DNA of 64,000 nucleotides from Hexactinellida sp. DTS-2022. Its lineage: Eukaryota; Porifera; Hexactinellida. The notes beneath the pieces are model-generated. The model ran no database searches, was not told the DNA's origin, and saw only the letters and a program-made list of their open reading frames with translations. The stretch is from assembly GCA_028753945.1 (NCBI GenBank), contig JAPNXP010000003.1, forward strand, positions 4,960,001-5,024,000. Direction: 5' to 3'. Shown in pieces: positions 5,936 through 58,890 of the stretch; position 1 is the stretch's first letter; the number at the start of each line of letters is the position of its first letter. The position numbers and the translations under genes were made by a program.

Positions 5936-6237
5936 CTAATTAATAGAAATCTGTTTGGCCTTACAAGTGTCTCCGAAAAGTTTATTGTGGCTTCTGAGTT
6001 TCTTAAGATCAGTAAATTCTCTCGTACAGTACGCACAAGTATATAATCTTCTTCCAGCAAATCTCTGCTTGCAACTGCCTTTATACCTCCCAGTGTGAAG
6101 CTGAATAGCGTGATAGGAATACCCTAATGCTCTCTTGCAACAAGGACAATAGTAGGGAGTACTGTCCTGTTCGGTATTTCTCGTAGACACAGGAATTGTA
6201 TCAGTAATACTTTGCACTCGGTATGGTATGTGTGCAC
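5936..6237 (-). CDS. Exon A7: terminal exon of zinc-finger unit VII, two C2HC fingers
   Basis: The exon opens after a polypyrimidine-AG acceptor (TTTTCAG|GTGCAC) with two bases completing a codon (phase 1). It runs through a Ser/Thr-rich linker (IPVSTRNTEQDSTP) to two fingers, C-x2-C-x13-H-x7-C and C-x2-C-x12-H-x7-C, and stops right after KQISIN. A donor-like GTAGGT follows the stop, as in A4, so the exon may once have been internal. D2 (271 bp), B5 (366 bp) and A7 (302 bp) sum to 939 bp, or 313 codons with the stop, so the frame closes exactly. It is probably a nucleic-acid-binding protein; no named family is recognised. Confidence 0.65.
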
Positions 6238-6763
6238 CTGAAAAGATATTAGGTTATTACTGAAATTATAATCCATTTGATTCATGTCAGTGTATATCTA
6301 CAGTGTTTTGTCATTCTACCAAGGCTTATTAATTGTATTTATTATCAAGTGTATGATTAAACTTTCTACTCTTGTAAAGAATATTTCATATACTATGTAC
6401 ATAACGTTTATGCCACCAGTGAAAGTTTAACTTGTCTAAGGACATTTCTCTCAAATAAATGACAAAAAATGAAGGAAATAAAATGCAATTGCAAACAAAT
6501 GTCCTTAGATTACTAAATTAATGAAGGGCGAATTTTTTATGAGCCTCTTCTTTAATACTATTCGGACAAACAAACACAAAATATAGATATATGCCAACAA
6601 ATTTGAAATTTGAACCCGGCTTCACAAAGGTGAATCTTTGATGTATATATGATTTAATGTATTTTCAGTGTCTGAAAATACATTAAATAAGGTGTTGGCC
6701 CATATATAAGTAATCCATAAAGGATATAATTCAAACAAACACAACTATAATGTAATAACTTAC
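6238..6763. other. Intron between exons B5 and A7
   Basis: This is bounded by a GTAAGT donor next to B5 and a TTTTCAG acceptor next to A7 on the minus strand. It holds a HINE-like 5-prime remnant (complement of TCCGGACAAACAAACACAAA near 6560-6590). The same intron layout recurs in the other units (30.8-31.1, 49.15-49.4 and 56.0-56.3 kb). No gene is seen in it. Confidence 0.55.
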
Positions 6764-7129
6764 TGGAGTTATATTTCTCTCTATCAATTGAGATCTGCTT
6801 TGCCTTACAAGAATTGCCAAAGTCTTTGTAGTGTTTTTCAAGAGTAAAGATTTGAAGAAATTCTTGTTTACAAATCTTACAGCCGTACAAAGGTCTGCCA
6901 ACATCATTCCTGCAATTTCCCTTATACATCCCAATATGATGTTTGAGATTCTTAATAGAAAAGCCTAATCCTCTGCCACAGTCAGGACAATAATAAGGAG
7001 CGTTATCTTCATGAATTACCAAATCATTAGGCGACTGTATTGTGGAATTTAACGTGGAATTAGATTTTGTTACATCCATACTTTGTTTTGGTGTCAGCAT
7101 GTTTGAACTGCCACTGCTCATTGGAATCT
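6764..7129 (-). CDS. Exon B5: middle exon of zinc-finger unit VII, two C2HC fingers
   Basis: Acceptor CTATCTACAG precedes a phase-1 start, and donor CTCCA|GTAAGT leaves one base, so the exon is symmetric (1-1). It encodes a polar N-terminal stretch (Met, Ser and Asn rich), then two fingers, CPDC-x13-H-x7-C and CKIC-x12-H-x7-C, ending KAKQISID. It is nearly identical to B1 at 56469-56834. No frame lesion is visible. A transposon foldback (7184-8758) fills the intron towards D2. Confidence 0.65.
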
Positions 7130-7435
7130 CTGTAGATAGCAAGAAATTGAGTTTCATATTAATTCTTAAACATCAATACTATGCAGTAGAATCCCGCTAT
7201 AATCTGGTCGTTGAAATCCAAAAATGGGTCATACTAGAAAAATTCATACAAAGCGTTTTTTAGTTTCACTATAAGCACAATTTTTCGTAGAATAGCATAT
7301 CCAAAATCCGCTAAAATCCGTTTTGGGTAAACATTTTATGTGGGTGGGAGTGTCGGCCTTTTCATAGTAAATCGCCGATATTTCCGTAACTAACCTTCTC
7401 AAATCAAATTTAATCAAATTATCATAGGCGTAGCA

Positions 7436-7537
7436 CGCGGTCCGGCTGGTCAGGACCAGTTTTCATTTGCTGTAACTACATTATATAGGAGGGTCAAGTT
7501 TGGCCGGACCACTTACCAGATCCGTGCGACACCCCTG
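7436..7537. mobile_element. Small hAT MITE inside the foldback
   Basis: The ends are AGGCGTAGCACGCGG and the complement of CAGGGGTGTCGCACGG. They are flanked by ATTATCAT (7428-7435) and ATTATGAT (7538-7545), an 8-bp duplication with one change. The opposite foldback arm shows the uninterrupted sequence. It is shared with copy 2, so it predates the segmental duplication. Confidence 0.6.
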
Positions 7538-7602
7538 ATTATGATCACCATATTTGTACTCGGCGAAAAATTTCCAGCAATTTGATATATCACATCACCA
7601 TA

Positions 7603-9342: not shown

Positions 9343-9613
9343 TGGGAGTTAGAGAGTTATAGCGCCTGTGAATGCTCTCATCTGCGGGAGAGGGACCCTC
9401 TGAGTCCGTATCTCCCCTCTCTTCATCAGTGTCCCTACAGTACTCCAAATAACCCATTCTGAATGTGTCATAGAATGCCCGCTTCTTCTCGGGAGAGAAA
9501 GTCTCCGGCTTTATGGAATGTATCAGACGGAAATGAGATATCATTTGCGCGCCCGTTTTGAGAACCAGTCCTTCGCACCTGATGCATTCAAATGTTTTTC
9601 TGTATCGACGCAT
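9343..9613 (-). CDS. Exon D2: initial exon of zinc-finger unit VII
   Basis: ATG at 9611-9613 starts a frame of 90 codons plus one base, ending at a CTCCCA|GTAAGT donor (phase 1), compatible with exon B5. It encodes one classical-type finger (FECIRC-x13-H-x4-H, about residues 8-31), a basic stretch (SPEKKRAFYDTF) and an acidic Asp/Glu/Ser tail. It aligns loosely with the start of the C-type exons (SHFxxxH ... FS/LS), so C and D are probably alternative versions of the same first exon. The start codon lies about 32 bp from a MITE edge (9646), so its upstream sequence is transposon-derived. It is nearly identical to D1. Confidence 0.6.
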
Positions 9614-13934: not shown

Positions 13935-14250
13935 AAAACGTGCCGTTCTTCTCATTAAAAGAAATCTGTCTGGCTCTACAAGTGTGTCCGAAAGTTTGTT
14001 GTGGCTTTTGAGATGGGAAAGTTGAATAAATTATTTGGTACAATACTTACGAGTACAGTATAGAATCTTTTTCCAGTAAGCATCTCCTACAACGCCCTTT
14101 ATACTTCTCTTTATGATACGGGAAAGAGTAAAGGGAATACCCTAATCCTCTCTTGCAACAAGGACAATAGTAAGGAGTACTGTCCTGTTCAGTATTTCTC
14201 GTAGACACAGGAATTGTATCATTAAAGCTTTCGCTGTGGTATGTGTTCAC
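13935..14250 (-). pseudogene. Exon A6: frameshifted terminal exon of unit VI
   Basis: The acceptor and linker (IPVSTRNTEQDSTP) match the other A exons and the first finger is complete. The frame is then lost near 14050-14090, so the second finger's CxxC region is scrambled. Downstream bases again match other A exons (CARQISF-like). Unit VI also lacks exon B; its initial exon C4 lies more than 10 kb upstream. Confidence 0.65.
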
Positions 14251-15068: not shown

Positions 15069-15683
15069 ATGTGTAAGGATCTAAAACATATAAATACAAT
15101 TCATCTGAAACAATGTAATATAATACGAAAAATACTAATGATGTCCATAAAAATGGAAACAACAAATTCAACAAGAAAAGGCCCTATCCTTACCAACAGC
15201 AAAGACCCTAGCCCTGCCAACACAGGCCCTATCCTTACCACCAGCAAAGGCCCTAATCCTGCCAACACAAGCCCTATCCTTACCACCAGCAAAGGCCCTA
15301 ATCCTGCCAACACAGGCCCTAACATTACCACCAGCAAAGGCCCTAGCCCTGCCAACACAAGTCCTATCCTTACCACCAGCAAAGGCCCTAACCCTACCAA
15401 CACAGGCCCTATCCTTATCACCAGCAAAGGCCCTAACCCTGTCATCAACTCAAGTCCTAACCCTGCCATCAACTCAAATCCTAAAAAATGGAAAAACAGG
15501 AATAGAGGCAGGAGAGGGGGGCCCACAGTCAACCAGCAGCTGGCATTTAGAATGCTGGATGTTTTGGACAAGGTGCTCAAGGTAATTTACAATATGTCAT
15601 TGTAACTATTATGGTAATTAATATTTATTTCCCCCTATTTTTAGCCAAAACAGTTTAAGAAGAAGAAGAAGAGAATAGTGTAA
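15069..15683 (+). CDS. Hypothetical two-exon Gly/Pro/Ser/Thr repeat protein
   Basis: Exon 1 (15069-15581) encodes a basic start, then about five to six imperfect 15-residue repeats (GPILTTSKGPNPANT type), then a basic Lys/Arg/Gly stretch (NRNRGRRGG) and LAFRMLDVLDKVLK. A GTAATT donor at 15582 and a TATTTTTAG acceptor ending at 15644 mark a 63-bp intron. Exon 2 (15645-15683) adds PKQFKKKKKRIV and a stop, in frame (phase 0). The Lys-rich tail could be a nuclear signal. There is no signal peptide and I recognise no family. The repeat region is a 45-bp minisatellite, so low-complexity non-coding sequence is an alternative. The neat intron and stop argue for a gene. The first Met is not certain. 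Confidence 0.45.
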
Positions 15684-19765: not shown

Positions 19766-20324
19766 TACAGGTCTTGAATTTTTTAGATCTGATAATTTTA
19801 TCTCAAGGTTCTCGACCATTTCGCGCGTCGTTTGGAACTGGTTTAAACTATTTACGACTACAGGTTCATATCGACGTGCTGTGCTACAGACATAGACTAC
19901 TTAATACTATGGACTGTCGACTCTCAATCTCGGGTCTTCAAACTCGGGTCCATTGTTATCTCTAGAACTATTAAGTGTATTGATATTAAATGTATTATTG
20001 TTGAATAGGAAGTCGTATATGGTGATGCCATTGGTCGTATTGGCATATCTCAAATATATCTGGTTTTTGAGTTTTGCGGTTTTCACACCTTTCCATATAT
20101 GGTAAAAATGTTGAAAACTCGGAATCAGTTAAAGTTAGACATGAAGAATGTATTATGGGCGAATGGGAAGTTGTATATAGGGAGTTTATTAACCCTATTG
20201 GATTATCTTAAATATTTCTAGTTTTTTAGTTTTGTCGTTTATGACTAATCTATATTTTATCCATATTTACTTAATATTTTTGAGTTTTTAGTTAGCTATT
20301 TACTAGCCACGTTTCAATCCAAAG

Positions 20325-23041: not shown

Positions 23042-23689
23042 TATTCTCAATCCTAAGAATTCATTATACATACGTATTTTTCATTTTAATTACTTTTTAT
23101 CAAAGAATTGTTATGTGAATATATTTACCCTTGCATTTATTATTAGTTAGTTCCGTCTAACATTTATTTTAGTCTCTTTTTAGCTTAAGTATAAAATATA
23201 AATCTATTTTAATGAAAGATAACTAAAACTGCGACTATAAACAAAAATCTACAATCGGTTCCGAGTTATTAAGATTATTACCATATTAGGAGTGCGAAAA
23301 GGAAAAAAACAAAAAAACTAGAAATATTTAAGATAATCCAATAGGGTTAATAAACTCCCTATATACAACTTCCCATTCGCCCATAATACATTCTTCATGT
23401 CTAACTTTAACTGTTTCCGAGTTTTCAACATTTTTACCATATATGGAAAGGTGTGAAAACCGCAAAACTCAAAAACCAGATATATTTGAGATATGCCAAT
23501 ACGACCAATGGCATCACCATATACGACTTCCTATTCAACAATAATACATTTAATATCAATACACTTAATAGTTCTAGAGATAACAATGGACCCGAGTTTG
23601 AAGACCCGAGATTGAGAGTCGACAGTCCATAGTATTAAGTAGTCTATGGCTACAGACAACAATCCTTAGTAGTATACATAGATATATAT

Positions 23690-24557: not shown

Positions 24558-25370
24558 CTGTTTGGATTAGGTGTTCTACATTGTTGATAGACATCTGCCA
24601 GGTTTTACAGGTATCACCAAACTTTGTGTTATGTGCCTTGAGAGACCATAGACTAAGATAATCAGTTTGGCAATAAGGACAGGTATAGAATGTTCTCCCA
24701 GAATTAACTCGTTTACAAAGACCTTTACTCTTGTCAATATGAAGCCGTAATTACTTAATGAATATCCTTTTCCTTGACCACAATCTGGGCAATAATAAGG
24801 GCCACTGTGTTCTTTCCTAATTGATTCGTCCTGTGACAACAATGTTTTACTATTTGTTGGTAATTCTTCTCCAGAGTCAATGCCTGTCATATCCATGGAC
24901 TCATTAGGTTCTGTTATGTGGGTCGGTAAACAATCGGATGAACTGGTGGCATCATCTGCAGGAGGAAACTCCTTCATTGTATCATCAGTTCCTCCTTCAT
25001 CTATTGTAAAACTAGAAACTTCTGTAATAAATGGATATCGTTCTTTAATCAGGTCTAAAGTCATAGCTTGTGATACATCTGGTACGTTTACTACATCGGC
25101 TGAATTGCACTCCACACTGATATTCGATCCTACATCTAACTCATCGACGTATTCTGTATCAAGAATATCATCCTCAGTCAAATGACTATTTCCAGCCTGT
25201 TTCTGTGGATCACTTTCTTGTACAGATTTAAAGTAACTATCAGAAATCTTTTTATTATAAACAGAAAGTTGTTCTGCATTGATATTGTGTTTCTCTTTGG
25301 ATTTCATCAGTTGAGTTGTCTCGAAATATTTCTCTCTCCATTGAGACACTAGCCACTCAATCAGTGACAT
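24558..25370 (-). pseudogene. Exon C4: frameshifted initial exon of unit VI
   Basis: This is the C-type first exon with the acidic region (LTEDDILDTEYVDELDVGS, SADVVNVPDVSQAMTLDLI) and the first CPDC motif. A one-base deletion in the finger region (near 24750) shifts the frame, and a second change follows, so the fingers are lost. A 2-bp deletion after the usual ATG (homologous position 25341) places an upstream ATG (25370) in frame instead. Donor CAAACAG|GTACAG is intact. The next exon B is missing from this unit. Confidence 0.7.
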
Positions 25371-26158: not shown

Positions 26159-26484
26159 TTAGAGCGAAAACATTTCGTGTTTCTCATTAAGGGAGATCTG
26201 TTCGGCTTTACAAGTGTCTCCGAAAAGTTTGTTGTGCCTTTTGAGAAGGGAAAGTTTAATAAATTCTTTCGTACAGTATGTACAACTATAGAACCTTCTT
26301 CCAGCAAATCTCTGCTTACAACAGCCTTTAAACGTCCCAGTGTGATCCTGGAAATCGAAATAGGAATACCCTAATCCTCTCTTGCAACAAGGACAATAGT
26401 AAGGAGTACTGTCCTGTTCAGTATTTCTCGTAGACACAGGAATTGTATCCGTAATGCTTTGCACTCGATGGGGTATGTGTGCAC
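26159..26484 (-). CDS. Exon A5: terminal exon of unit V, two C2HC fingers
   Basis: The acceptor ends TTTTTCAG|GTGCAC (phase 1). The linker VSTRNTEQDSTP is followed by fingers CPCC-x13-H-x7-C and CTYC-x12-H-x7-C. The frame stops 11 residues past QISLN. The donor-like site kept in A4 and A7 is mutated here (GAAATG), which supports terminal-exon use. Upstream B4 is intact, but the unit's first exon carries two MITEs. Confidence 0.6.
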
Positions 26485-27102: not shown

Positions 27103-27444
27103 AGAAGTTATATGTTGCTTTATTGATTGAGATCTGCTTTGCCTTACAAGAATAGCCAAAGTCTTTGTAGTGTTTTTCAAGACTACAGATTTTAAGAAAT
27201 TCTTGTTTGCAAATCTTACAGCCGTACAATGTTCTGCCAGCATCATTCCTGCAATTTCCCTTATTTAATTCAATATGACGTTTGAGATTCTTAATAGAGT
27301 AGCCTAATCCTCTGCCACAGTCAGGACAATAATATGGATCTTTTTCTCTCAATAAACAATATTGTGAGACCAGGGAAACCAATGACTGATTATTTGTCGG
27401 TGAGTAGTTAGTCGAGTTTATTATAGATTCTGATATATTCCCAT
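27103..27444 (-). CDS. Exon B4: middle exon of unit V, two C2HC fingers
   Basis: Acceptor TTTTATTTGCATTTTAG and donor CTTCT|GTAAGA give a symmetric phase-1 exon of 342 bp. After an Asn/Ser-rich lead (DGNISESIINS) come CPDC-x13-H-x7-C and CKIC-x12-H-x7-C, then KAKQISINK. No lesion is seen. A pogo-like MITE sits only about 33 bp upstream of the acceptor. Confidence 0.65.
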
Positions 27445-29016: not shown

Positions 29017-29093
29017 ATTGAGTTAGTGAGCTAATATCAGAGTAACTGGTAATAGCATAATCTGTAGGGGATAACTTTATACTACCTATACTC

Positions 29094-29328
29094 CAGGCCT
29101 TCATCTGGGTGCGCGGCGCGCACCCAGGAGTGCGTGATTTTAAGGAAAATGCTGGAAGGGTGCGTGAAATTGGAATTAATTGGGTGTGCAGTGCGCACCC
29201 AGAGTATTTTTAATACTAAATTTGGTCTTTTTTTGGTAAATATGCTATTTTTGGTTTATTTGGGTGCGCGATTGTAAAATAAACATTTCCTAGGGTGCGC
29301 GGATCTCTTAGGGCTAGATGAAGGCCTG
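29094..29328. mobile_element. hAT MITE with a TGGGTGCGCG interior
   Basis: The 13-bp perfect ends are CAGGCCTTCATCT, flanked by exact CTATACTC (29086-29093, 29329-29336). GGTGCGCG/GCGCACCC motifs recur inside. It is inserted in the coding part of exon Cprime. Confidence 0.9.
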
Positions 29329-29681
29329 CTATACTCCCATTATTTTGCATCCGAATACCAAAAACTTCATCCCCAATAGAATCTGAATATATTTCTGTAA
29401 TCAGGTCAGTAGACAGATCTACTCCAGGTAAGTTAGCTGCATCAGCGGAATTGGATTCCACACAGAGATCTGGTATCTCCTCTAACGCATCAAAGTACTC
29501 AGAAGAACCATTCCTGTACAGCTGACAATCTCCCTCCAGCTCCTGTGTCCCATCCACTCGTACTCCAAAGCAAACCTCGTGAACCTCTCCATCCTTAGTG
29601 GACAGTTGTTCAGGACAGATAGCGTGCTTCTCTGTGAAATGTGATTTTATAAACTCGGAGTTGGGCAATATTCCCCTACAC

Positions 29682-30416: not shown

Positions 30417-30772
30417 CTATAGCAAAAACGTACCGTGTTTCACATTAAGAGAAATCTGTTCGGCCTTACAAGTGTCTCCGGAAAGTTTATTGTGGTTTCT
30501 GAGTTTCGAAAGATCAGTAAATTCTTTCGTACAGTACTTACAAGTATATAATCTTCTTCCAGCAAACTTCTCCTTGCAACTGCCTTTATACTTCCCATGG
30601 TGATCCTGTAAAGCGTAATAGGAATACCCTAATCCTCTCTTGCAATAAGGACAATAGTAAGGAGTACTGTCCTGTTCAGTCACCAATTCATTAGTAGGGT
30701 GTACTGTTGTTCTTATCGTAGACACAGGAATTGCATCCTCAAAGCTTTGGACTCGATGTGGTATGTGTGCAC
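30417..30772 (-). CDS. Exon A4: terminal exon of unit IV, two C2HC fingers
   Basis: A phase-1 acceptor (TTTTCAG|GTGCAC) is followed by a longer linker (TVHPTNELVTEQDSTP, shared with A3). Fingers CPYC-x13-H-x7-C and CKYC-x12-H-x7-C end QISLNVKHGTFLL and a stop. A good donor CACG|GTACGT lies just before the stop, so splicing onward cannot be excluded. Unit IV has no exon B in the expected interval. Confidence 0.55.
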
Positions 30773-33728: not shown

Positions 33729-34514
33729 CTGTTTGGATTAGGTGTTTTAGATTGTTCAAAGATATCTGCCAGGTTTTACAGGTATCACCAAACTCTGTGT
33801 TATGTCTCATGAGAGATTTGAGACTAAGATAATCAGTTTGACAATAAGGACAGGTATAGAATGTTCTCCCAAATTATGTCGTTTACAAAGACCTTTATTC
33901 TTGCCAATATGAAGCCGTAAAGTATTCAATGAATATCCTTTTCCTTGACCACAATCTGGGCAATAATAAGGAACATTGTCTTCTTTCCTAATTAATTCTT
34001 TCTGAGACGATAATCTTTTACTATTTGTTGGTAATCCTTCTCCACAGTCAATGCCTGTCATATCCATGGATTCATTAGGTTCTGATATGTGGGTCAGTAA
34101 ACAATCGGATGAACTGGTGGCATCATCTGCAGGAGGAAACTCCTTCATTGTATCATCAGTTCCCCCTTCCTCTATTGTAAAACTAGACACTTCTGTAATA
34201 AATGGATATCGTTCTTTAATCAGGTCTAAAGTCATAGCCTGTGATACATCTGGTACGTTTACTACATCGGCTGAATTGCACTCCACACTGATATTCGATC
34301 CTACATCTAACTCATCTACGTATTCTGTATCAAGAATATCATCCTCAGTCAAATGACTATTTCCAGCCTGCTTCTGTAGATCACTTTCTTGTACAGATTC
34401 AAAGTAACTAACAGAAATATTTTTATTATAAACAGAAAGTTGTTCTGCATTGATATTGTGTTTCTCTTTGAATTGCATCAGTTGAGTTGTCTCGAAATAT
34501 TTCTCACACTCCAT
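33729..34514 (-). pseudogene. Exon C3: frameshifted initial exon of unit IV
   Basis: From ATG (MECEKYFETTQ) the acidic region and first finger (CPDC-x13-H-x7-C) are intact. A one-base deletion relative to C2 near 33870 then shifts the frame, losing the second finger's Cys pair. Donor AAACAG|GTATAG is intact and phase 1. The exon is 786 bp against 787 in C2. It could be a sequencing error, so the lesion should be confirmed. Confidence 0.7.
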
Positions 34515-35881: not shown

Positions 35882-36228
35882 TTAAGCGACTTTCAGATTC
35901 TCATTAAGGGAGATCTGTCTGACCTTACAAGTGTCTCCGAAACGTTTGTTGTGGCTTCTGAGTTTCGGAAGATCAGTAAATCCTTTCGTACAGTACTTAC
36001 AATTATATAATCTTCTTCCAGCAAATCTCTCCTTGCAACTCACTGTATACTTCCCAGTGTGAATCTGGAAAGCGAAATAGGAATACCCTAATCCTCTCTT
36101 GCAATAAGGACAATAGTAAGGAGTACTGTCCTGCTCAGTCACCAATTCATTAGTAGGGTGTACTGTAGTACTTATCGTAGACACAGGAATTGTATCGTTG
36201 ATGCTTTGGACTCGCTGTGGTATGTGTG
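35882..36228 (-). CDS. Exon A3: terminal exon of unit III, two C2HC fingers
   Basis: The acceptor TTTTCAG|CACACA lacks one codon found in other copies but keeps phase 1. Fingers CPYC-x13-H-x7-C and CKYC-x12-H-x7-C end QISLNENLKVA and a stop, with no donor before it. C2 (787), B3 (342) and A3 (347) sum to 492 codons, so frames were compatible before the B3 nonsense change. Confidence 0.6.
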
Positions 36229-36620: not shown

Positions 36621-36962
36621 CGAAGTTACATCGATCTCTATCCATTGAGATCTGTTTTTCCTTACAAGAATTGCCAAAGTTTGTATAGTGTTTTTCAAGC
36701 CTGCAGAATTGAAGAAAATCTTGTTTACAAATCTTACAGCCTTACAAAGTTCTGCCAGCATCATTCCTGCAATTTCCCCTATATCTCCTAATATGACGTT
36801 TGAGATTCTCAATAGAGTAGCCTAATCCTCTGCCACAGTCAGGACAATAGTATGGATCGTTTTCTCTCAATAAACAATATTGTGGGACCAGGGAAACCAT
36901 TGACTGATTATCTGTCGGTGAGTGGTTACTCGAGTTTATTATAGAATCTGATATATTTCCAT
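36621..36962 (-). pseudogene. Exon B3: middle exon of unit III with nonsense codon
   Basis: Acceptor, phase, length (342 bp) and first finger are normal. The conserved Tyr codon before the second CxxC is TAA (near 36747), so the second finger is not translated. Donor CTTCG|GTAAGT is intact. Confidence 0.75.
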
Positions 36963-41841: not shown

Positions 41842-42628
41842 CTGTTTGTATTAGGGATTTTACATTGTTGATAGACATCTGCCAGGTTTTACAGGTATCA
41901 CCAAACTTTGTGTTATGTCTCTTGAGAGATAGGAGACTAAAATAATCAATTTGGCAATAAGGACAGGTATAGAATGTTCTCCCAGAATTATCTCGTTTAC
42001 AAAGACCTTTATTCTTGCCAATATGCTTCCGTAAATTATTTAATGAATATCCTTTTCCTTGACCACAATCTGGGCAATAATAAGGACCACTGTGTTCTTT
42101 CCTAATTGATACTTCCTGTGACGATAATGTTTTACTATTTGTTGGTAATTCTTCTCCAGAGTCAATGCCTGTCATATCCATGGATTCATTAGGTTCTGAT
42201 ATGTGGGTCAGTAAACAATCGGAGGAACTGGTGGCATTATCTGCAGAAGGAAAATCCTTCATTGTATCATCAGTTCCTCCTTCCTCTATTGTAAAACTAG
42301 AAACTTCTGTAATAAATGGATAACGTTCTTTAATCAGGTCTAAAGTCATAGCCTGTGATACATCTTGTACGTTTACTACATCGGCTGAATTGCACTCCAC
42401 ACTGATATTCGATCCTACATCTAACTCATCTACGTATTCTGTATCAAGAATATCATCCTCAGTCAATTGACTATTTCCAGCCTGTTTCTGTGGATCACTT
42501 TCTTGTACAGATTCATAGTAACTATCAGAAATCTTTATATTACTAACAGAAAGTTGTTCTGCATTGATATTGTGTTTCTCTTTGAATTTCATCAGTTGAG
42601 TTGTCTCGAAATATTTCTCACACTCCAT
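41842..42628 (-). CDS. Exon C2: intact initial exon of unit III
   Basis: The only C exon here with an uninterrupted frame: 262 codons and one base from MECEKYFETTQ to donor CAAACAG|GTACAG (phase 1). Residues about 50-110 are strongly acidic (LTEDDILDTEYVDELD) and include the conserved SADVV ... SQAMTLDLI block. Residues about 185-250 form two fingers, CPDC-x13-H-x7-C and CPYC-x12-H-x7-C. With B and A the protein would have six C2HC fingers behind an acidic region, which suggests a DNA-binding regulator (inference). Its partner exon B3 has a nonsense codon. No obvious acceptor lies just upstream of the ATG, so this is read as the first exon. Confidence 0.68.
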
Positions 42629-43720: not shown

Positions 43721-44046
43721 TTAGAGCGAAAACACTCCGTGCTTCTCATTAAGGGAGATCTGTTCGGCCTTACAAGTGTCTCCGAAAAGTTTGTTGTGGC
43801 TTTTGAGTTTCGAAAGTTGAATAAATTCTTTCGTACAGTACTCACAAGTATAGAATCTTCTTCCAGCAAATCTCTCCTTGCAACTGCTTCTATACTTCCC
43901 AGTGTGATTCTGGAAAGCGAAATAGGAATACCCAAATCCTCTCTTGCAACAAGGACAATAGTAAGGAGTACTGTCCTGTTCGGTATTTCTCGTAGACACA
44001 GGAATTGTATCATTAATGCTTTGCACTCGGTATGGTATGTGTGCAC
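43721..44046 (-). CDS. Exon A2: terminal exon of unit II, two C2HC fingers
   Basis: TTTTCAG|GTGCAC opens a phase-1 exon with fingers CPCC-x13-H-x7-C and CEYC-x12-H-x7-C. It stops 11 residues past QISLN (KHGVFSL). The former donor is GGAGTG, so splicing onward is unlikely. C1, B2 and A2 lengths sum to a multiple of three (1455 bp). The B2-A2 intron is swollen to 5.5 kb by HINE-like and hAT insertions. Confidence 0.62.
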
Positions 44047-44934: not shown

Positions 44935-47559
44935 CAGTGGTTCTTAACCTTTTTTAGCCATTTACCCCTTGTCCTAGGTGAGTAGTGCCCATTTACCTCA
45001 GAGATTTTCTCCTGACAAAATGTTCAATTACGAATGTTTATTGCGCGCCATATATAGTATGTAACAAATTAACACATAAAGTACTATGATATGTGAATTA
45101 GAGAACTATATTATTACTATTTTCTATAAACCAATGACAACTCTTAGTGTGAGCCCTGAAATTGTTTGCTCTTCACCAAAAGCTGAATTCTTGGTAATGT
45201 TGTGGATAGAGACACTCGCATGTCATCTTCGGGGAACAAACTAGAACGTGCTTTCGTCTTCATAGTGACGAGAGCCGAAAAGCCTGATTCGCATAGATAA
45301 GTGGTCACAAAGGGTACGATTACATTGAATGCACGCTGAGATAGTAGTGGATAAGCTTCAATCAAGCTTCCCCAAAATTTTCCTGGTGTCTCCACTTCAA
45401 ACCTGTGCCGAAGAGCTGCTGAAGATTGCATTTCAATCAGTTCATCTTTCCCAGGATCATCATCGTCTACTTCACTCAATTTTGTTATGAAAGGTCTAGT
45501 TATCCAGTCTCCCGTGGAGATCATCCCGATCGAGAAATAATTATTAAAACTACTCTTGAGAGCACGCAAATGGCCAGCTATTTCTTCAATGAGGTCAGCC
45601 GAGACAAAAAAATCTGGACTACAGATACCATCCAGATTAGAAAAAGTAGCAAAATTCTTCTTTTCAATCCGGATTGCCCATAGCTCAAGTTTGGTTTGAA
45701 ATGCCTGCAACTTTTCTGAAGCTTCTAAAATTGTGACGGTGTTACCCTGCATTGCCAAGTTGACCTGATTGAGCAATGCAAATATATCAGACAAATAGGC
45801 CATTGCAGCAATGAATTTAGAATCTTCGAAATGTTCTGACAAAGATGACCCTTTGTCACGAAGAAATATACCCATCTCAACACGAAGATCAAAGATTCGA
45901 GAAAGCATAAGTCCTCGCGAAAGCCATCGCACTTCAGTGTGGTACAACAACACTGAATAATGCGAACCAAGCTCGTCACACAATTTTTTGAAAAGACGAT
46001 GATTCAGAGCACGACTTCGGATATAGTTGACACATTAAACTAATTTGGCCAACACATACTTTAAGTATTGTGGAAGAGTTTTTGATGCCAATGCATGCCG
46101 ATGAAGTACGCAGTGGGTAGAGATCACATGAGGAGCTCTCTTTTTTACTAAAGTGGTGAATCCACTATTAACTCCCATCATTGCTGAGGCACCATCTGTA
46201 CACAAAGATCCAACATTATCCCAAGTGATTGGTTTTGTTCAAAAAATCCCTCCAACTTTTCAAACACGTCGATAGCTTTCGTTGTCGACTCCAGGGATTC
46301 ACACATCAGAAATTCCTCCCTCAAATCTCCTTCATGAATATAACGAGAGAAGACTAACAGCTGCGAAAAGTTTGAAACATCGGTGGATTCATCCAGTTGA
46401 AGACTGATTCTTGAAGGACTCGATCGAATTTCCGCAACAACTTGCTCCCTAATATCAAGGGACATGTCTCCTATTCGTTTTCGAATAGTATCATTGGACA
46501 AAGGAATCTGTTGAATTTTGCGTCGAGCCTCCTCACCAATCATCAACCTCACCATTTCTAATGCACACGGTTTGACGAGAGTCTCACCAATTGTGTGATC
46601 CTTTTTTGCTTTCGCAATTTTAAAAGGTACCGTGTAGGACGCTTCCAGAGCTACTTTATGTTCTGGGAGAAACCCGTGTTTTGCAAGTGTTCCTTCAGCA
46701 CGGATCCGAGCTCTTTTGACCCTGAATTCTTCATTACTGTAGTTGGATTCACTTGGATGACTTGACTGTAGGTGCTGTCTCAAAATGGACGGTTTCAATG
46801 AACCATTTTCTAACACTTTTGAGCAAAAAATGCATTTAGGTTTTTCAATACCATCCAAAACTATGAAATCGAAGCCGAACTGAACATAAGAATCGTCATA
46901 ATTTCTTTTCTTTGACATAACTAGACTAGAGTCTGCAAACTAAAACATTAATAATATAACTCGATTGTTGTATTGTTTGTCCGGATTGTATTAAAGTTAT
47001 AAGGGAATAGAAACCCCACTTATACTTTGAGATAGAGTAACTTCCAAGTGTAAATATAGGTAAACAAGTATACTGATACGATTTTCACAATTAGAAATTT
47101 TTATTATGAATATTTTATTTTTTGTAGTTTACAAACAATTGGTGAAAATTCAAAATGAGCCTGGAAACTCCAGAGGGAATTTTAGATGTTGGAGACAAAT
47201 TTGGCATTTGTGATTCACTTGGGATATAAAAATTATGCTGATAGAACATAATAGTATTAGGAATTTAGGATATATTGATATCCAAACACAGCAGAAAATG
47301 GTCACAAAGAGGCGATTATAATATAATAAGAATAATCGATGGCAAAATAATTAGTAATGTTTTCATAATATGCAGACCATTCTTTTCTAAAAGGAATAGA
47401 GAATTTGAACTCATATTGTGGTCTTATTTTAAATGAGTTGTAGTTTTTAAAAGCACTTCTAGGCTAGTTATCCTAATTTTGTGAGATAATTCTATTTATC
47501 CCCCACCATCGTAAAATTTACCGCTTGGGGGTAAATTTACCCCAGGTTAAGAACCCCTG
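44935..47559 (-). mobile_element. hAT element with decayed transposase
   Basis: The ends are CAGTGGTTCTTAACC and the complement of CAGGGGTTCTTAACC, flanked by exact CATTAGAG (44927-44934, 47560-47567). It is inserted in a HINE-like element whose empty counterpart is readable near 10750-10800. 47000-47500 and 44950-45140 are untranslated flanks. Confidence 0.92.
45144..46918 (-). pseudogene. hAT transposase (SCAND3/ZBED5-like) with frameshift and stop
   Basis: The N-terminus (MSKKRNYDDSY) leads into a BED zinc finger (CIFC ... HLQSSH). The catalytic region begins at LQLDESTDVSN. A one-base loss near 46225 interrupts the CTDGASAM block, and a TAA at 46035-46037 interrupts the frame before EVRWLSRG. 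Then CVLHRHALA-type C-x2-H and a C-terminal dimerisation motif (TYLCESGFSALVTMKTKAR) follow, ending at 45144. Both lesions lie inside an otherwise colinear transposase, so the copy is inactive as read. It could still be recognised by the MITEs' ends, but its own ends differ from most MITEs here. Confidence 0.88.
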
Positions 47560-49565: not shown

Positions 49566-49907
49566 CGAAGTTGTATCTATCTCTATCAATTGAGATCTGC
49601 TTTGTCTTACAAGAATTGCCAAAGTCTTTGTAGTGTTTTTCAAGCATACAGATTTGAAGAAATTCTTGTTTACAAATATTACAGCAGTATAAAGGTCTGG
49701 CAGCATCATTCCTGCAATTTCCCTTATATAACCCAATATGACGTTTGAGATTCTTAATAGAGTAGCCTGATCCTCTGCCACAGTCAGGACAATAATAAGG
49801 ATCTTTTTCTCTCAATAAACAATATTGTGGGACCAGGGAAACTATTGACTGATTATTTGTCGGTGAGCCGTTAGTCGAGTTTATTATAGATTCTGATATA
49901 TTTCCAT
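49566..49907 (-). CDS. Exon B2: middle exon of unit II, two C2HC fingers
   Basis: Acceptor TTTACATCTTAG|AT and donor CTTCG|GTAAGT give a symmetric phase-1 exon of 342 bp. Fingers are CPDC-x13-H-x7-C and CNIC-x12-H-x7-C, then KTKQISID. It has no lesion. It differs from B1/B5 in its lead segment (DGNISESIINSTNG against the Met/Ser-rich lead), so two B subtypes exist. Confidence 0.65.
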
Positions 49908-50200: not shown

Positions 50201-52260
50201 ACATTGATTAAAAAGCGTTAATAGGCCTATTGTAGTCAATTTTAACAATATGAAATTTTAATCTGGTGTGACCAACGTATCCGCATCATTAATGCACATG
50301 TTTCATCAAATTTTCAGATTTCTATCTCTTAGAGGAAGCGAATTATGTGCAATTAAGTGAATTTTCATGCTTCTCAAAATATGACAATGACGTCATAACT
50401 TGGCGAGGTGAGAGAAATTTCGAGTGGAACCCACGATTTGTTGTCGGGTGCCAAAAGTTGCCATTATATGTCAAAAATCAGAGAAACAATTATTCGCGAG
50501 ATCGGGATTTTGTCCGACTTTTTCCGACAATTTTTGGCCGCCATCTTGAAAATAATATAATTTCGTGATGCCTCCATATCCATATCTTTTGATATTATAT
50601 TTGTCTATGTCTGTGCCAATTTTCATGCTTGTAACAAAAATTGAACAATTCACGCCAAAGTCGCCAATATGGCTGTTATGCTGAAGGGATGAAATACTGT
50701 AACTGAATTCAACACGAACGTTCATTTGTAGCAACTAGGCATTCTGGAGACTTTTCAGCTTTCCGATCCATGAGCAATATCCAACAGTTATGCATCTCAG
50801 CGTTCATCTAGAAAGTGGCCAACGTGTTACGTATCTATTTCACAGAAAAGACATTACATCAACAAATAAAAGGATCCCACCAATACCACACTTGCTGCAT
50901 TTTCCAAATTTGTCAAGAAGAGGACTTTTCCCGAAGTATACTCTATGTGCAAGTCCCAAAGTACTACACCTCGGGACAGAGTAATAAAAAGTTTAAACCC
51001 AAGGAGCAGCGGTAGAAGGATTTCAAGAAATCAAGGCAAGTGATGCACTTGGGAGAGTTTACACAGTCCACCCCAAATAACTACGAATGCCTCTTTTTCA
51101 GCGACGGACCCGGTCGTGTCTGACCTGCACCGGTCAACCGGTCGGATCACTACGGGTCGGGTACCGGTGGAACCTTGACCGGCCGGTCGAACCCTGACCG
51201 ACCCGTTGAGGTCTCTATATGATCTATTCGATATCATAATCATAATTTGTTTTGATTGAATCTGGCTCCAATAGCCCTTGAGAGCATAGTAGTCTTAAAG
51301 GAGGCTTCCATAAATGGTCTATGGCCATAATATTTATTCCTAATGTATATGACATGACACTACAGTAGATTCTTATTCAATTATTTATAAATTGTTGTTA
51401 GCTATGAATGAACGGTCGACCGGCCGGTTGGGTCGGGTCAAATTTCCAACTGCACCGGTCGGGTCGGGTCATTAAAATCCCGACCGGTTCCACCTCTGCT
51501 CCGTTTGAGGCTTTTTCTACATCATGTTAATGGTTCAACCTCATTTCAACAATTGAGAACTGTGAGTGGTCGTGTTTATCTGCCTTACAGAGAAGCATGC
51601 AATGTGATGGTATGTTGGAAGATGATTCTCACAGGAATGATATCTTATCAGAAGCTGCTACGAATGATTCTTCGGCAAAGCTTAGATACATATTTGCCAT
51701 CATGATAGCAACATGTGGACTATCGCCCCAATTGCAAATCGAGAAATCTTGAAAGAAACAAATTACTGCATAGACCAATTGGAGTCGTACATTCAAGACA
51801 CAGAACCTCTGTTAGTGCCATATCAAGCCACTGGATATGTCAGGATGAGACTAACTGTTCAAGAAGATAGAGATGGAGCACCAATAATGCTACTTCGAAA
51901 CTTAGATGCAACAAAATTGTGTAATGGTACAAGACTTACAGTGAAAATGCCTCACGTGATTGAGGCCATAATTTAAACGGGAGCAGCCAAGAGAGATGTC
52001 CTCATCCCAATAATTCCACGCTCGCCAGTGGATATGCCATTCGAATTCAAAAGGCTTCAATTCGCGATTAAATTAGGTTTTGCGATTACATCAACAAGTC
52101 GCAAGCGCAAGGTCAGTCTATAAAGGTAGTCGGTCTCCACCTGTATTTTGGGTGATCTCGAGTTGGATCCAGCCCAAATCTACACATATTAACGGAAGAT
52201 GGCAAATGATTAATGTTGTATATCCAAAATCTTTGAATAAAGTCAATATACTTATATTAA
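50200..52260 (+). pseudogene. Degenerate Helitron helicase remnant 2
   Basis: The best-preserved remnant. FWRLFSFPIHEQYP and VHLESGQRV (50.74-50.83 kb) precede a KASDALGRVYTVHPNN block (51.03 kb) and FQQLRTVSGRVYLPYREACN (51.54-51.6 kb). GAPIMLLRNLDATKLCNGTR (51.87 kb) and a C-terminal VVYPKSLNK (52.2 kb) follow. These are characteristic of Helitron Pif1-like helicases. Stops, frameshifts and a hAT MITE (51099-51498) inactivate it. Confidence 0.85.
51099..51498. mobile_element. hAT MITE of the CCGACCCGACC family inside the Helitron remnant
   Basis: The ends CAGCGACGGACCCGGTCG and complement of CAGAGGTGGAACCGGTCGG lie between CTCTTTTT and CTCCGTTT (6 of 8 match). Remnant 1 shows the uninterrupted site near 39990. 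The centre (51240-51400) holds unrelated inserted sequence. Confidence 0.72.
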
Positions 52261-53709: not shown

Positions 53710-54496
53710 CTGTTTGGATTAGGTGTTCTACATTGTTCATAGACATCTGCAAGGTTTTACAGGTATCACCAAACCTTGTGTTATGTCTCTCGAGAGAGAT
53801 CGGAGACTAAGATAATCAGTTTGGCAATAAGGACAGGTATAGAATGTTCTCCCAAAATCTTTAGTTTACAAAGACCTTTAGTCTTGCCAATATGAAGCCG
53901 TAAAGTATTTAATGAATATCCTAATCCTTGACCACAATCTGGGCAATAATAAGGACCAATGTGTTCTTTCCTAATTAATTCTTTCTGAGACGATAATGTT
54001 TACTATTTGTTGGTAATTCTTCTCCAGAGTCAATGCCTGTCATATCCATGGATTCATTAGGTTCTGTTATGTGGGTCGGTAAACAATCGGACGAACTGGA
54101 GGCATTATCTGCAGGAGGAAACTCCTTCATTGTATCATCAGTTCCCCCTTCCTCTATTGTAAAACTAGACACTTCTGTAATAAATGGATATCGTTCTTTA
54201 ATCAGTTCTAAAGTCATAGCCTGTGATACATCTGGTACGTTTACTACATCGGCTGAATTGCACTCCACACTGATATTCGATCCTACATCTAACTCATCGA
54301 CGTATTCTGTATCAAGAATATCATCCTCAGTCAAATGACTATTTCCAGCCTGCTTCTGTAGATCACTTTCTTGTACAGATTCAAAGTAACTATCAGAAAT
54401 CTTTTTATGATTAAGAGAAAGTTGTTCTGCATTGATATTGTGTTTCTCTTTGAATTGCATCAGTTCAGTTGTCTCGATATATTTCTCACACTCCAT
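53710..54496 (-). pseudogene. Exon C1: frameshifted initial exon of unit II
   Basis: MECEKYIETTE and the acidic region match C2. A missing T in a T-run near 54000 (GTTTACT against GTTTTACT) ends the frame before the fingers. A small insertion near 53790 restores total length (787 bp). Finger-coding DNA is still recognisable to donor AAACAG|GTATAG. The homopolymer context makes a base-calling error possible. Confidence 0.7.
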
Positions 54497-55626: not shown

Positions 55627-55946
55627 TTAAGTGACTTTCAGATTCTCATTAAGGGAGATCTGTCTGACCTTACAAGTGTCTCCGAAACGTTTGTTGTGGA
55701 TTCTGAGTTTCGGAAGATCAGTAAATTCTTTCGTACAGTCCTTACAAGTATAGAATCTTCTTCCAGCAAATCTCTCCTTGCAACTCCCTTTATACGTCCC
55801 AGTGTGAAGCTGGAAATCGTAATATGAATACCCTAATGCTCTCTTGCAACAAGGACAATAGTAGGGAGTACTGTCCTGTTCGGTATTTCTCGTAGACACA
55901 GGAATTGTATCCTTAATGCTTTGGACTCGCTGTGGTGTGTGTGCAC
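55627..55946 (-). CDS. Exon A1: terminal exon of unit I, two C2HC fingers
   Basis: Acceptor TTTTCAG|GTGCAC, phase 1. Fingers CPCC-x13-H-x7-C and CKDC-x12-H-x7-C, ending QISLNENLKVT and a stop. D1 (271), B1 (366) and A1 (320) sum to 957 bp, exactly 319 codons including the stop, and no lesion is visible. Unit I is one of two apparently intact genes. Confidence 0.67.
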
Positions 55947-56468
55947 CTGAAAATATATTAAGTTATTTCTGAAATTATAATCCATTTGATTCATGTCAGT
56001 GTATATCTACAGTTTTGTCATTCTACCAAGGCTTATTAATTGTATTTATTATCAAGTGTATGATTAAACTTTCTACTCTTGTTAAGAATATTTAATATAT
56101 GTACATAACATTTATGCCACCAGTGAAAGTTTAACTTGTCTAAGGACATTTCTCTCAAATAAATGACAAAAAATGAAGGAAATAAAATGCAATTGCAAAC
56201 AGAATGTCCTTAGATTACTAAATTAATGAAGGGCGAATTTTTTATGAGCCTCTTCTTTAATACTATTCGGACAAACAAACACAAAATATAGATATATGCC
56301 AACAAATTTGAAATTTGAACCCGGCTTCACAAAGGTGAATCTTTGATGTATATATGATTTAATGTATTTTCAGTGTCTGAAAATACATTTAATAAGGTGT
56401 TGGCCCATATATAAGTAATCCATAAAGGATATAATTCAAACAAACACAACTATAATGTAATAACTTAC

Positions 56469-56834
56469 TGGAGTTATATTTCTCTCTATCAATTGAGATC
56501 TGCTTTGCCTTACAAGAATTGCCAAAGTCTTTGTAGTGTTTTTCAAGAGTAAAGATTTGAAGAAATTCTTGTTTACAAATCTTACAGCCGTACAAAGGTC
56601 TGCCAACATCATTCCTGCAATTTCCCTTATACATCCCAATATGATGATTGAGATACTTAATAGAAAAGCCTAATCCTCTGCCACAGTCAGGACAATAATA
56701 AGGAGCGTTATCTTCATGAATTACCAAATCATTAGGCGACTGTATTGTGGAATTTAACGTGGAATTAGATTTTGTTACATCCATACTTTGTTTTGGTGTC
56801 AGCATGTTTGAACTGCCACTGCTCATTGGAATCT
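56469..56834 (-). CDS. Exon B1: middle exon of unit I, two C2HC fingers
   Basis: Acceptor CTATCTACAG and donor CTCCA|GTAAGT, both phase 1, 366 bp. It carries the Met/Ser/Thr-rich lead, then CPDC-x13-H-x7-C (HIGMYKGNC) and CKIC-x12-H-x7-C. It differs from B5 by only a few codons (YLNHH against NLKHH). Confidence 0.67.
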
Positions 56835-56882
56835 CTGTAGATAGGAAGAAATTGAGTTGCATATTAATTCTTAAACATCAAT

Positions 56883-58032
56883 ACTATGCAGTAGAATCCC
56901 GCTATAATCTGGTCGTTGAAATCCAAAAATGGGTCATACTAGAAAAATTCATACAAAGCGTTTTTTAGTTTCACTATAAGCACAATTTTTCGTAGAATAG
57001 CATATCCAAAATCCGCTAAAATCCGTTTTGGGTAAACATTTTATGTGGGTGGGAGTGTCGGCCTTTTCATAGTAAATCGCCGATATTTCCGTAACTAACC
57101 TTCTCAACTCAAATCTAATCAAATTATCATAGGCGTAGCACGCGGTCCGGCTGGTCAGGACCAGTTTTCATTTGCTGTAACTACATTATATAGGAGGGTC
57201 AAGTTTGGCCGGACCACTTTAATTGTTTGGCCGGACCACGTACCAGATCCGTGCGACACCCCTGATTATGATCACCATATTTGTACTCAGCGTAATCTCC
57301 AGCAATTTGATATATCACATCACCATATTTGCATGAATTTTCCTTATCAACGCTGGAATTCAACTCTACTTGTATAATTATACACATAACGACCCTCTAG
57401 ACGTGATTAATCTGTAAATCTTCAATCTTAAGGTATATCTAGAATAATCACGTCAAATCGCGTTTTAGAGGGTCGTTATGTGCATAATTATACAAGTGAA
57501 AATGGAATGTTGTTACATTCCTGATGCATTCCAGCGTTGCTAAGGAAAATTCATCCAAATATGGTGATGTGATATACAGTTCAAACAGGGTTTTCTAACC
57601 ATTTCTTTTCAGATAAAAATAGTAAGAAAAAACCGATAGTTAGAAAAAACCGATGAAAAATACAGTATAGTTGGAATTTCTTACAAAAGATTGCATTACT
57701 AATAGTTAGAATAAACCGATAAGTTAGAATAACCCGAGTTAGAATAAACCGGTTTCGACTGTTTCAAATTGCAGGAAATTTCACGCTGAGTACAAATATG
57801 GTGATTATAAGCTGACTAGATTTGATTGAGAAAGTTAGCTACGGAAATGTCGGCAAAATTTACTATGAAAAGGCCGACACTGCCACCCACATAAAAAAAA
57901 TCCCCTAAAACGGATATCGCGGATTTTGGATATGCTATTCTACGAAAAATGGCGGTCCAGTGAAACTAAAAACGCTTTGTATGAATTTTTTCTAGGTTCA
58001 ACCATCCAACGACCAGACTAAATACGACACCA
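56883..58032. mobile_element. Foldback element, copy 2
   Basis: Same long hairpin as 7184-8758. It shares the 102-bp hAT MITE, with a short local duplication (TTTGGCCGGACCAC). It has an empty TA where 7603-8044 sits, and a different MITE at 57577-57761. Confidence 0.7.
57577..57761. mobile_element. Pogo-like MITE, copy-2 specific
   Basis: It begins CAGTTCAAACAGGGTTTTCT after TA (57575-57576) and ends CCGGTTTCGACTG. The second TA is changed to TT. Internal TTAGAATAAACCG repeats are present. Confidence 0.72.
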
Positions 58033-58619
58033 GTGGACAGTAAAGAATAAGTTCTACTCATTATCCCAAATTAGTATTAACCGATGTAATTTGAATTGAA
58101 AAGTTTTCGAGGGGGGGTGAAATAGGGTACCTACAATGAATCAACCGGAAATTTATACTGTTGTATGCAGGGGCGCAATAAGCAAGGTATGTTGAGGCCT
58201 AAGCTAAATGAGTGTAGGAGGCCCTACCAATGAGTTTTATAGGTGTAACTAAAATACCGGGGAAAGGAACCAAGGATTGTAATTTCGCTTAAAAAAAGAG
58301 GCGAATACAATAGTAAGTGGAGCTAAGCACTGAAAAGAGGGGATGAACACCTCTTCCTAAATACAAGTTAGTAACGCCCAGTCGGCTATAAGAAAGCAGT
58401 AATATGTACAAGCTACACAATGTCAATTAAGTGGGTTCGGACATCAATACAGTTACTTAAAGAATATTCTAATTAATGGATGTTGACTGTACATACAAGT
58501 GACTCCGGTAAAACGAATTCCCGGAGAATACGAACAAATTTAGACGGTTGTTTGCATTAACGAGAGTCTACTGTTGTATTGTATAATTATGGCCTAGAAT
58601 GTGTATGCACTATACTTAC
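58033..58619. other. Intron between D1 and B1, distal part
   Basis: Duplicate of 8759-9342 with small differences (CAGGGGCGCAATAAGC at 58168). No gene. Confidence 0.45.
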
Positions 58620-58890
58620 TGGGAGTTAGAGAGTTATAGCGCCTGTGAATGCTCTCATCTGCGGGAGAGGGACCCTCGGAGTCCGTATCTCCCCTCTCTT
58701 CATCAGTGTCCCTACAGTACTCCAAATAACCCATTCTGAATGTGTCATAGAATGCCCGCTTCTTCTCGGGAGAGAAAGTCTCCGGCTTTATGGAATGTAT
58801 CAGACGGAAATGAGATATCATTTGCGCGCCCGTTTTAAGAACCAGTCCTTCGCACCTGATGCATTCAAATGTTTTTCTGTATCGACGCAT
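58620..58890 (-). CDS. Exon D1: initial exon of unit I
   Basis: ATG at 58888-58890, one C-x2-C-x13-H-x4-H finger at about residues 8-31, an acidic Asp/Glu/Ser tail and donor CCCA|GTAAGT (phase 1). The coding part is essentially identical to D2. The same pogo-like MITE edge (CAGTCAAGTCTGC) lies about 32 bp upstream of the ATG. Exons B1 and A1 follow in compatible phase. Confidence 0.62.

Follow-up and report, generated by a model that had tools for sequence, protein, structure and literature searches.

The window, by which we mean the whole 64-kb stretch of DNA that was analysed, contains seven zinc-finger gene units on the minus strand, numbered I to VII from right to left (Table 1). Exons A, B and C each hold one finger pair, with A carrying the stop codon, and three types of initial exon were distinguished: C (an acidic tail and a finger pair), C' (the acidic tail alone) and D (short, with one C2H2-like finger). 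The initial annotation had described A, B and C/D as recurring in the order initial-B-A on a three-exon plan shared by all units. The recurrence, the order and the initial exons C and D were borne out, but C' is a third initial type and no B exon was found in either unit IV or unit VI, so that the plan is one of two or three exons. As had been claimed, the initial-B-A joins are in phase 1 at GT-AG sites, and the summed exon lengths of units I, II, III and VII (957, 1455, 1476 and 939 nt) were reproduced. As a mark of open genes, however, these whole-codon sums failed, because unit II carries indels (−1, −1, +2) and six in-frame stops in exon C and unit III carries a TAA in exon B. Units IV (exon C) and V (split C') are broken as well, as is VI in both of its exons, C and A, so that two of the seven units (I and VII) are intact and II to VI are not. 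Skipping of exon B in unit III would presumably keep C and A in frame, as this exon is symmetric (phase 1-1). The proposed spacing of 0.7–1.4 kb from exon A to the next initial exon was found for five of the six gaps, one of them measured to the approximate limit of C', and not between VI and VII (4.3 kb). Taken together, the initial description was confirmed in part, with recurrence, phase and sums standing and openness and the uniform plan not; pseudogenes, the larger array, exon swapping and selection at DNA-contact residues were absent from it.

Table 1. Exons of the seven gene units and an inserted element in the 64-kb window.
Feature	Position	Strand	Remarks
Unit I exon D	58620..58890	-	Intact initial exon with ATG; a single C2H2-like finger seen by eye; donor A|GTAAGT
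Unit I exon B	56469..56834	-	Two C2HC fingers; phase 1-1; intact
Unit I exon A	55627..55946	-	Two C2HC fingers and stop; completes intact 957-nt CDS
Unit II exon C	53710..54496	-	Acidic N-terminus and finger pair; frameshifted, six stops
Unit II exon B	49566..49907	-	Intact
Unit II exon A	43721..44046	-	Intact
Unit III exon C	41842..42628	-	Intact; 262 codons + 1 nt
Unit III exon B	36621..36962	-	Nonsense codon TAA at 36742-36744; symmetric, phase 1-1
Unit III exon A	35882..36228	-	Intact
Unit IV exon C	33729..34514	-	-1 frameshift
Unit IV exon A	30417..30772	-	Intact
Unit V exon C'	29017..29680	-	Acidic, without finger pair; interrupted by inserted element; 5' limit approximate
235-bp element inserted in unit V exon C'	29094..29328	.	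Inverted ends; 8-bp target duplication GAGTATAG
Unit V exon B	27103..27444	-	Intact
Unit V exon A	26159..26484	-	Intact
Unit VI exon C	24558..25341	-	Frameshifted
Unit VI exon A	13951..14250	-	Broken: four indels, eight stops in aligned frame
Unit VII exon D	9343..9613	-	Intact
Unit VII exon B	6764..7129	-	Intact
Unit VII exon A	5936..6237	-	Intact; completes 939-nt CDS

The count of seven units stood within the window, but the array extends far past it: 24 array-type units were modelled, 23 on contig C12 and one on contig C6, of which the window holds seven. The copies found on C12 span a 1.4-Mb stretch, with the main array at 4.966–5.283 Mb, and the genome-wide count of finger pairs is a lower bound, 150 of 252 candidates having been scored. 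The architectures D-B-A, C-A, C-B-A and C'-B-A were represented, giving four to six fingers per protein. Fifteen of the 24 units were open (13 of the 23 on C12, the one on C6 and one remodelled C'-B-A unit) and nine were not. A single long gene with repeated exons was provisionally set aside, as each unit again has an initial exon with an ATG and an A exon with a stop. Several mobile elements, including P-element-like and hAT-like ones, were observed within the array, one of them with near-identical ends. Four TGF-beta domain matches indicate that the host is an animal, 14 control genomes having given none, whereas Wnt genes did not discriminate, the control genomes of that search being silent as well.

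The splice sites were found to be retained in the exon copies covered: B exons kept the acceptor AG and the donor GT in 17 of 17 copies each, C exons the donor GT in 19 of 19, A exons the acceptor in 27 of 27, and D exons the donor in all five extracted copies, a sixth copy (C12:5206616) being outside this count. The 12 copies of the B6-type exon differed by a mean of 8.6% with 0.49 indels per pair per kb, compared with a difference of about 30% and about 25 indels per pair per kb in their flanks. Most exon types were likewise far less changed than their flanks, the substitution conservation of B1-type exons being no better than that of theirs. The units were found to have exchanged exon A (AU p=0.002), and the downstream part of exon A of unit I matches unit III best. 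With all modelled introns in phase 1 and B a symmetric module, such exchange would be frame-safe, and unequal exchange between units could swap, drop or add finger pairs with the frame kept. A diverged, compact three-exon gene of 537 codons with the same phase-1 plan, gene X, lies 1.1 Mb away. Exons A and B each align to its exon 2, which suggests that both may derive from a doubling of that exon; the tree did not resolve A from B (A-clade support 25). Exon 3 of gene X and the B6-type exon have a similar-looking N-terminal part. An ancestral exon order of C-A-B was set aside, since the tree does not unite B with exon 3 of gene X.

The ligands of the A, B and C fingers follow C-x2-C-x12/13-H-x7-C, except for a small number of length variants among the first fingers, and differ from the canonical C2H2 pattern, C-x2-C-x12-H-x3-5-H. 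FOG- and MYT1-type C2HC fingers likewise have Cys as the fourth ligand, but their H-to-C spacing is shorter than the H-x7-C found here. Pfam scans at E up to 1 were conducted for seven exons (two A, two B, C, C' and D) and two whole proteins. Against the zf-C2H2_4 cut-off of 27 bits, a whole C-B-A protein scored 28.8 and gene X 31.9, with single exons falling below it, and the finger profile matched solved C2H2 fingers in the PDB, namely those of Aart (2.1e-10) and PRDM9 (5.3e-7), these best solved matches being DNA-binding fingers. With this cut-off passed and solved C2H2 fingers matched, the family is best read as C2HC-ligand members of the C2H2 superfamily. As to the beta-beta-alpha fold, in an AlphaFold model that was poor (mean pLDDT 53) the helices begin where expected, and the second finger forms short strands and a helix (block pLDDT 60–76), which overruns the last zinc cysteine. 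The same scans of the seven exons and two whole proteins gave no match to KRAB, any other known silencing domain, ZAD or MYT1-type fingers at E up to 1, zf-C2HE remaining below its cut-off (E 0.05); nothing in NCBIfam exceeded its cut-off, and exon D had no convincing relative (one match, E 0.6). The earlier statement that no named family with this architecture was recognised thus failed at the superfamily level, and it held insofar as no family with this exon plan appeared among the papers listed in literature searches.

Variation was found to cluster at positions −1, 2, 3 and 6 of the helix, which canonically contact DNA, a numbering that is less sure for these fingers because of their C2HC ligands and the noncanonical x13 spacing in finger 1. 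By NG86 counts for each exon type, dN/dS at contact positions versus the rest was 3.64 versus 0.66 in A, 2.18 versus 0.34 in B and 1.75 versus 0.92 in C. A purpose-written codon likelihood with eight preset contact codons gave omega values of 5.1 (A), 1.27 (B) and 7.15 (C) at contacts and 0.3–0.9 elsewhere, with likelihood ratios against omega=1 that were significant for A (38.7) and C (13.2) and not for B (0.67). Before codons were counted, broken rows were left out (3 of 27 for A, 2 of 17 for B and 6 of 19 for C), together with one further C row that has a four-residue insertion. Tree-based tests can be misled where paralogs undergo gene conversion, a problem that comparison of sister pairs reduces but does not abolish. 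In 13 sister pairs, taken from A and B with no C pair included, the contact/rest replacement rate was 3.46 (Fisher p 4.9e-8), and the ratio for the control, the non-contact helix positions, was 0.64 (p 0.93); pN/pS in this control was above 1, at 2.06, a value resting on one synonymous change. Three of the 13 pairs (one A, two B) had no contact change, the most variable column of exon B was a non-contact one, and some non-contact columns were fast, namely 23 (exons A, B) and 31 (exons A, C). As judged from these sequences, positive selection on positions −1, 2, 3 and 6 is demonstrated for exons A and C, and it is a new result of this analysis.

We consider it probable, at about 0.74, that the seven units in the window belong to a tandem multi-exon cluster encoding zinc-finger proteins of DNA-binding type whose specificity is diversifying, resembling KRAB clusters but without KRAB. 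The proteins would act in the nucleus, the residues at −1, 2, 3 and 6 would read DNA, and new copies would be retained since they bind new sequences. The previous interpretation was supported in part; its claim that a putatively lineage-specific family is expanding, instead of one protein having been domesticated, is supported, as to the expansion, by one cluster and one moved unit, constrained exons and the number of open units.

KRAB genes carry a long finger array in one exon, which is absent here: the fingers are C2HC with H-x7-C, two to an exon, in two or three separate exons that make up four to six per protein. PRDM9 is encoded by one gene, in which a methyltransferase part is joined to a long array of C2H2 fingers; its fingers are among the best PDB profile matches, but the present locus is a gene cluster without a methyltransferase-type Pfam match. 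Insect ZAD zinc-finger clusters, like the present array, are an invertebrate tandem expansion, but the array proteins have no ZAD match; the two insect sets considered next (Drosophila, Anopheles) are presumably ZAD genes. In Emerson and Thomas (2009, PMC2604467), vertebrate KRAB/poly-C2H2 clusters are described as lineage-amplified, with positive selection focused on base-contact residues, and Table 2 reports selection for the vertebrate expansions and N/S for the Drosophila and Anopheles sets. Diversifying selection on contact residues is thus already documented for vertebrate clusters, and the two insect sets tested in that study showed none. PMC3126818 reports positive selection on the contact residues of PRDM9 in primates. 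The likeness of the present array to the KRAB/poly-C2H2 clusters lies in clustered genes with positive selection at contact residues, a feature found among paralogs in exons A and C and not significant in B.

Mammalian zinc-finger genes that target jumping genes show similar positive selection on DNA-reading residues, and it may be possible, compatibly with the reading preferred above, that the targets are mobile elements of the host genome in an independent counterpart of the KRAB defence. Tandem expansion, contact-site selection and turnover follow the vertebrate poly-zinc-finger pattern described in PMC2604467, and the array itself contains several mobile elements, including the one with near-identical ends; the Pfam scans, however, yielded neither KRAB nor another known silencing domain, and meiotic drive or recombination control would explain diversifying selection equally well, so that these targets are on balance doubtful. 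It can be suggested only tentatively that a non-vertebrate animal independently built a KRAB-like recogniser from C2HC pairs, shuffled phase-1 two-finger exons and driven contacts, most likely against mobile elements.

It is unlikely that the helix face diversifies for recognition of RNA or protein, for example a fast-changing partner or a pathogen protein, since selection falls on those positions with which DNA-bound C2H2 fingers contact bases, the other helix positions vary less than the remainder of the pair, and the best solved relatives are DNA-binding fingers; against this, DNA binding of the family is a prediction, the acidic C tail fits either use, exon B had no significant positive selection, and in other families C2HC fingers are protein binders. 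A decaying gene graveyard, in which relaxed selection and conversion among tandem copies produce a replacement excess by chance, would accord with five of the seven window units being broken, the exon exchange and one shifted reading common to five C copies. This is very improbable, as relaxed constraint would bring omega near 1, in contrast to 5–7 at the eight preset codons and 0.3–0.9 elsewhere, most exon types are conserved far above their flanks, and open units number 15 of 24. Amplification of a domesticated mobile-element or viral protein with its element is scarcely credible and was set aside: P-element-like and hAT-like elements do lie inside the array, but the finger-pair copies found are not dispersed (one C12 stretch and one C6 unit, with 150 of 252 candidates scored), the genes are multi-exon, no transposase was among the Pfam matches of the exons, and no related viral protein was found (0 of 26 pattern matches confirmed).

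A tandem cluster of diversifying DNA-binding-type zinc-finger proteins therefore remains our preferred reading. Such a clear signal from the small genome of an animal, in fingers whose fourth ligand differs and whose exons are two-finger modules, would indicate that a race of this kind evolves repeatedly and out of different starting parts, and sister copies that differ at few helix residues offer a natural experiment for a C2HC recognition code.

The initial annotation had placed recurring exons on the minus strand of the window, and these were recovered both as direct-repeat families and in tblastn searches that used A, B, C, and D as queries. Exons A, B, and C each encode one pair of C2HC fingers, A being terminal; the initial exon is C (pair plus acidic tail), C' (acidic, without the pair), or D (short, with one C2H2-like finger). 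In the genome searched (112.4 Mb, 18 contigs), the window is positions 4960001-5024000 of contig C12, and the array reaches beyond it to 5.283 Mb, on the minus strand throughout. Four TGF-beta domains encoded in this genome point to an animal host. The copy count of the first genome-wide search is a lower bound because 150 of 252 candidates were scored; all were scored in three further searches. The remaining matches of the first search, on several contigs, mostly cover the query's first ~35 residues, N-terminal to the finger, and have the appearance of a dispersed repeat.

Positions of the exon copies and their relatives (bare coordinates are window positions)
Feature	Position	Strand	Details
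Exon A	5936, 13951, 26159, 30417, 35882, 43721, 55627	minus	n=7 in window; tblastn
Exon B	6764, 27103, 36621, 49566, 56469	minus	n=5 in window; tblastn
Exon C	24558, 33729, 41842, 53710	minus	n=4 in window; tblastn
Exon C'	~29.0-29.7 kb	minus	C-related; n=1 in window; tblastn
Exon D	9343, 58620	minus	n=2 in window; tblastn
Small array	C12 4.058-4.070 Mb
Diverged relatives	C12 3.886-3.929 Mb	plus
Gene X	C12:3886026-3887893	plus	three exons, introns 76 and 178 nt, GT-AG, phase-1 joins, 537 open codons
Broken exon D copy	C12 4.014 Mb
One D-B-A unit	C6 1.032-1.035 Mb

Splice sites were found at exon B (acceptor AG and donor GT, both 17/17), at the exon C donor (GT, 19/19), at the exon D donor (5/5 extracted copies), and at the exon A acceptor (TTTTCAG or TATTTCAG, 27/27), and the phase-1 junctions claimed previously hold for the joins in modelled units. 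On C12, 13 of 23 modelled units were open from ATG to stop; together with a remodelled C'-B-A unit (1140 nt) and the D-B-A unit on contig C6 (969 nt), 15 of 24 array-type units were open, a count that leaves out a C'-B-A set near 4.06 Mb as well as orphan exons (a C exon at C12:5029898, a D exon at 5206616, and one B and one A exon near 4.069 Mb). A further unit, at C12:5217504, is free of stops but has no ATG in the alignment. The whole-codon exon sums reported for units I, II, III, and VII were reproduced, but II and III contain stops and are not open genes; two of the seven window units (numbered right to left) are open, namely, unit I at 957 nt and unit VII at 939 nt. Unit V is broken by a 235-bp element splitting exon C' (29094-29328), which is non-autonomous-looking with 13-bp inverted ends and an 8-bp target duplication, and which is absent from the exon C' copy at C12:5096355-5096826. 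Five exon C copies (window 24558 and 33729; C12:5168331, 5253236, and 5266587) run into one common shifted frame (GEHSIPVL...), as would be expected had a single frameshift spread via duplication or conversion.

Other elements lie within or beside the array. A P-element-like transposon (19888-23651) with 346-nt inverted arms, 99% complementary, separates the C exon of unit VI from its A exon, carries plus-strand frames for a THAP domain (20307-20726) and a TNP-like transposase (20879-23041), and looks recent. Minus-strand hAT-like pieces (45144-46939) inside the second intron of unit II include a BED-like finger frame (below cut-off) and a dimerisation-domain frame (just below it). A Pif1-type helicase fragment (51686-51976; Pif1_2B_dom 2e-9) is perhaps a Helitron remnant. 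Adjoining the array on the minus strand is a 1317-codon open frame (1575-5528) for a leucine-rich-repeat protein (LRR_4 1.4e-51), which may be LRRC9-like. Satellite units of ~142 bp form two inverted blocks ~2.2 kb apart (59566-63606), and tandem repeats of 45 bp (15134-15492) and 42 bp (38021-38599) are also present.

Exons were compared with their flanks, flanks with unfetched bases being dropped. With flank figures biased upward where insertions leave neighbours non-homologous, B6-type exons, one of two kinds of exon B (n=12), differed by a mean of 8.6% with 0.49 indels/pair/kb, all from one broken copy, against ~30% and ~25 in flanks of 150-180 nt; C exons (n=19) by 6.2% with 2.1, of which 28% were multiples of three (flanks: 15-31% and 16-27); the 24 open A exons by 12.3% with 1.7 (flanks: 20-27% and 28-30); and D exons (n=5) by 1.6% with zero against 4-22% and 13-18. 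The A-exon indels were all multiples of three, partly because three broken copies were left out. In B1-type exons, the other kind (n=5), substitutions were no lower than in flanks (4.1% vs 3.9-5.1%), and indels were 1.1/pair/kb vs 2.7-3.9.

The B1-type exons of five D-B-A units separated from all other B exons (bootstrap 100), and the A exons of these units formed no clade, a forced clade being rejected (AU p 0.002). Unit I is a chimera: its exons D and B are ~99% like those of unit VII, its exon A is 88-91% like that of VII, and from within A onward its similarity to unit III is 95.6% across 788 bp; the crossover point is not exactly placed, since one BLAST break sits at an indel inside A. 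Exon 1 of gene X, a diverged solo gene, has 41-45% identity to open array C exons and clustered with the C exons of the array (100 by ultrafast bootstrap). Exon 2 of gene X grouped with a second diverged copy (95); A and B had no firm position in this tree. Because A and B both align to gene X exon 2, they may derive from doubling of an exon of this type, with exon 3 lost.

We then considered the contact positions (helix -1, 2, 3, and 6 of both fingers, counted back from the zinc-binding histidine). Averaged over columns, entropy at contacts vs the rest was 1.75 vs 0.45 in A (24 pairs; permutation p 1e-5), 0.85 vs 0.25 in B (15 pairs; p 0.002), and 0.78 vs 0.23 in C (12 pairs; p 0.004). The five most variable of 65 exon A columns are all contacts; the top column is non-contact in B and contact in C, where the second is non-contact. 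Pairwise dN/dS at contacts vs the rest was 3.64 vs 0.66 (A), 2.18 vs 0.34 (B), and 1.75 vs 0.92 (C). A codon model on a tree built from non-contact codons gave contact omegas of 5.10, 1.27, and 7.15 for A, B, and C (rest: 0.77, 0.32, and 0.91), with likelihood ratios of 124, 26, and 48 against equal omegas and 38.7, 0.67, and 13.2 against a contact omega of 1, indicating positive selection in A and C; in B, change at contacts was raised yet not significantly positive. A few non-contact columns were likewise fast in this model. In 13 sister pairs (9 A, 4 B, 0 C), a test with little tree dependence, the contact replacement rate per site was 3.46 times that of the rest (p 4.9e-8; pN/pS 3.03 vs 0.55), with contact changes absent from three pairs; non-contact helix positions, as a control, gave a rate ratio of 0.64 (p 0.93) and a pN/pS of 2.06 that rests on one synonymous change. 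Outside the finger pairs, dN/dS was 0.72 for the acidic C tail (n=8), 0.28 for exon D (n=5), and 0.64 and 0.48 for the N-termini of B6 (n=10) and A (n=14); the B1-type exon gave 0.73 (n=4). By these sequence measures, diversifying selection is strong on the expected DNA-reading residues in two of the three finger-pair exons.

Whole proteins passed the Pfam zf-C2H2_4 cut-off, which single exons missed, and Pfam scans of both gave no match to KRAB, ZAD, or BTB. A profile of 11 window sequences matched DNA-binding C2H2 proteins in the PDB, the top matches being Aart, a designed protein, and PRDM9. The AlphaFold model from this alignment was weak (mean pLDDT 53, pTM 0.33); its helices begin at residues 41 and 77, which correspond to +1 of each finger and agree with the numbering, and helix 2 extends to 101, beyond the final zinc-binding cysteine, a departure from known fingers. 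The exon C tail is acidic (38 Asp/Glu vs 12 Lys/Arg in 181 residues), and exon D is neutral (15 Asp/Glu vs 16 Lys/Arg in 90 residues).

According to Emerson and Thomas (PMC2604467), contact positions are positively selected in vertebrate poly-zinc-finger expansions, with no positive selection at contacts in the Drosophila and Anopheles sets; PMC3126818 describes such selection in PRDM9 and in paralogs of recent origin in primates, contact residues otherwise tending toward conservation between orthologs. The family was undescribed among the matches listed, mostly non-subscription literature, on clusters of C2HC genes, zinc-finger expansions in sponges, and selection at contact sites in invertebrates. 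The recurring exons are read here, from genomic sequence, as a modular, exchanging zinc-finger cluster, which is predicted to work like the KRAB zinc-finger class, yet is not a member of it, and for which a putative role in defence against mobile elements is plausible.
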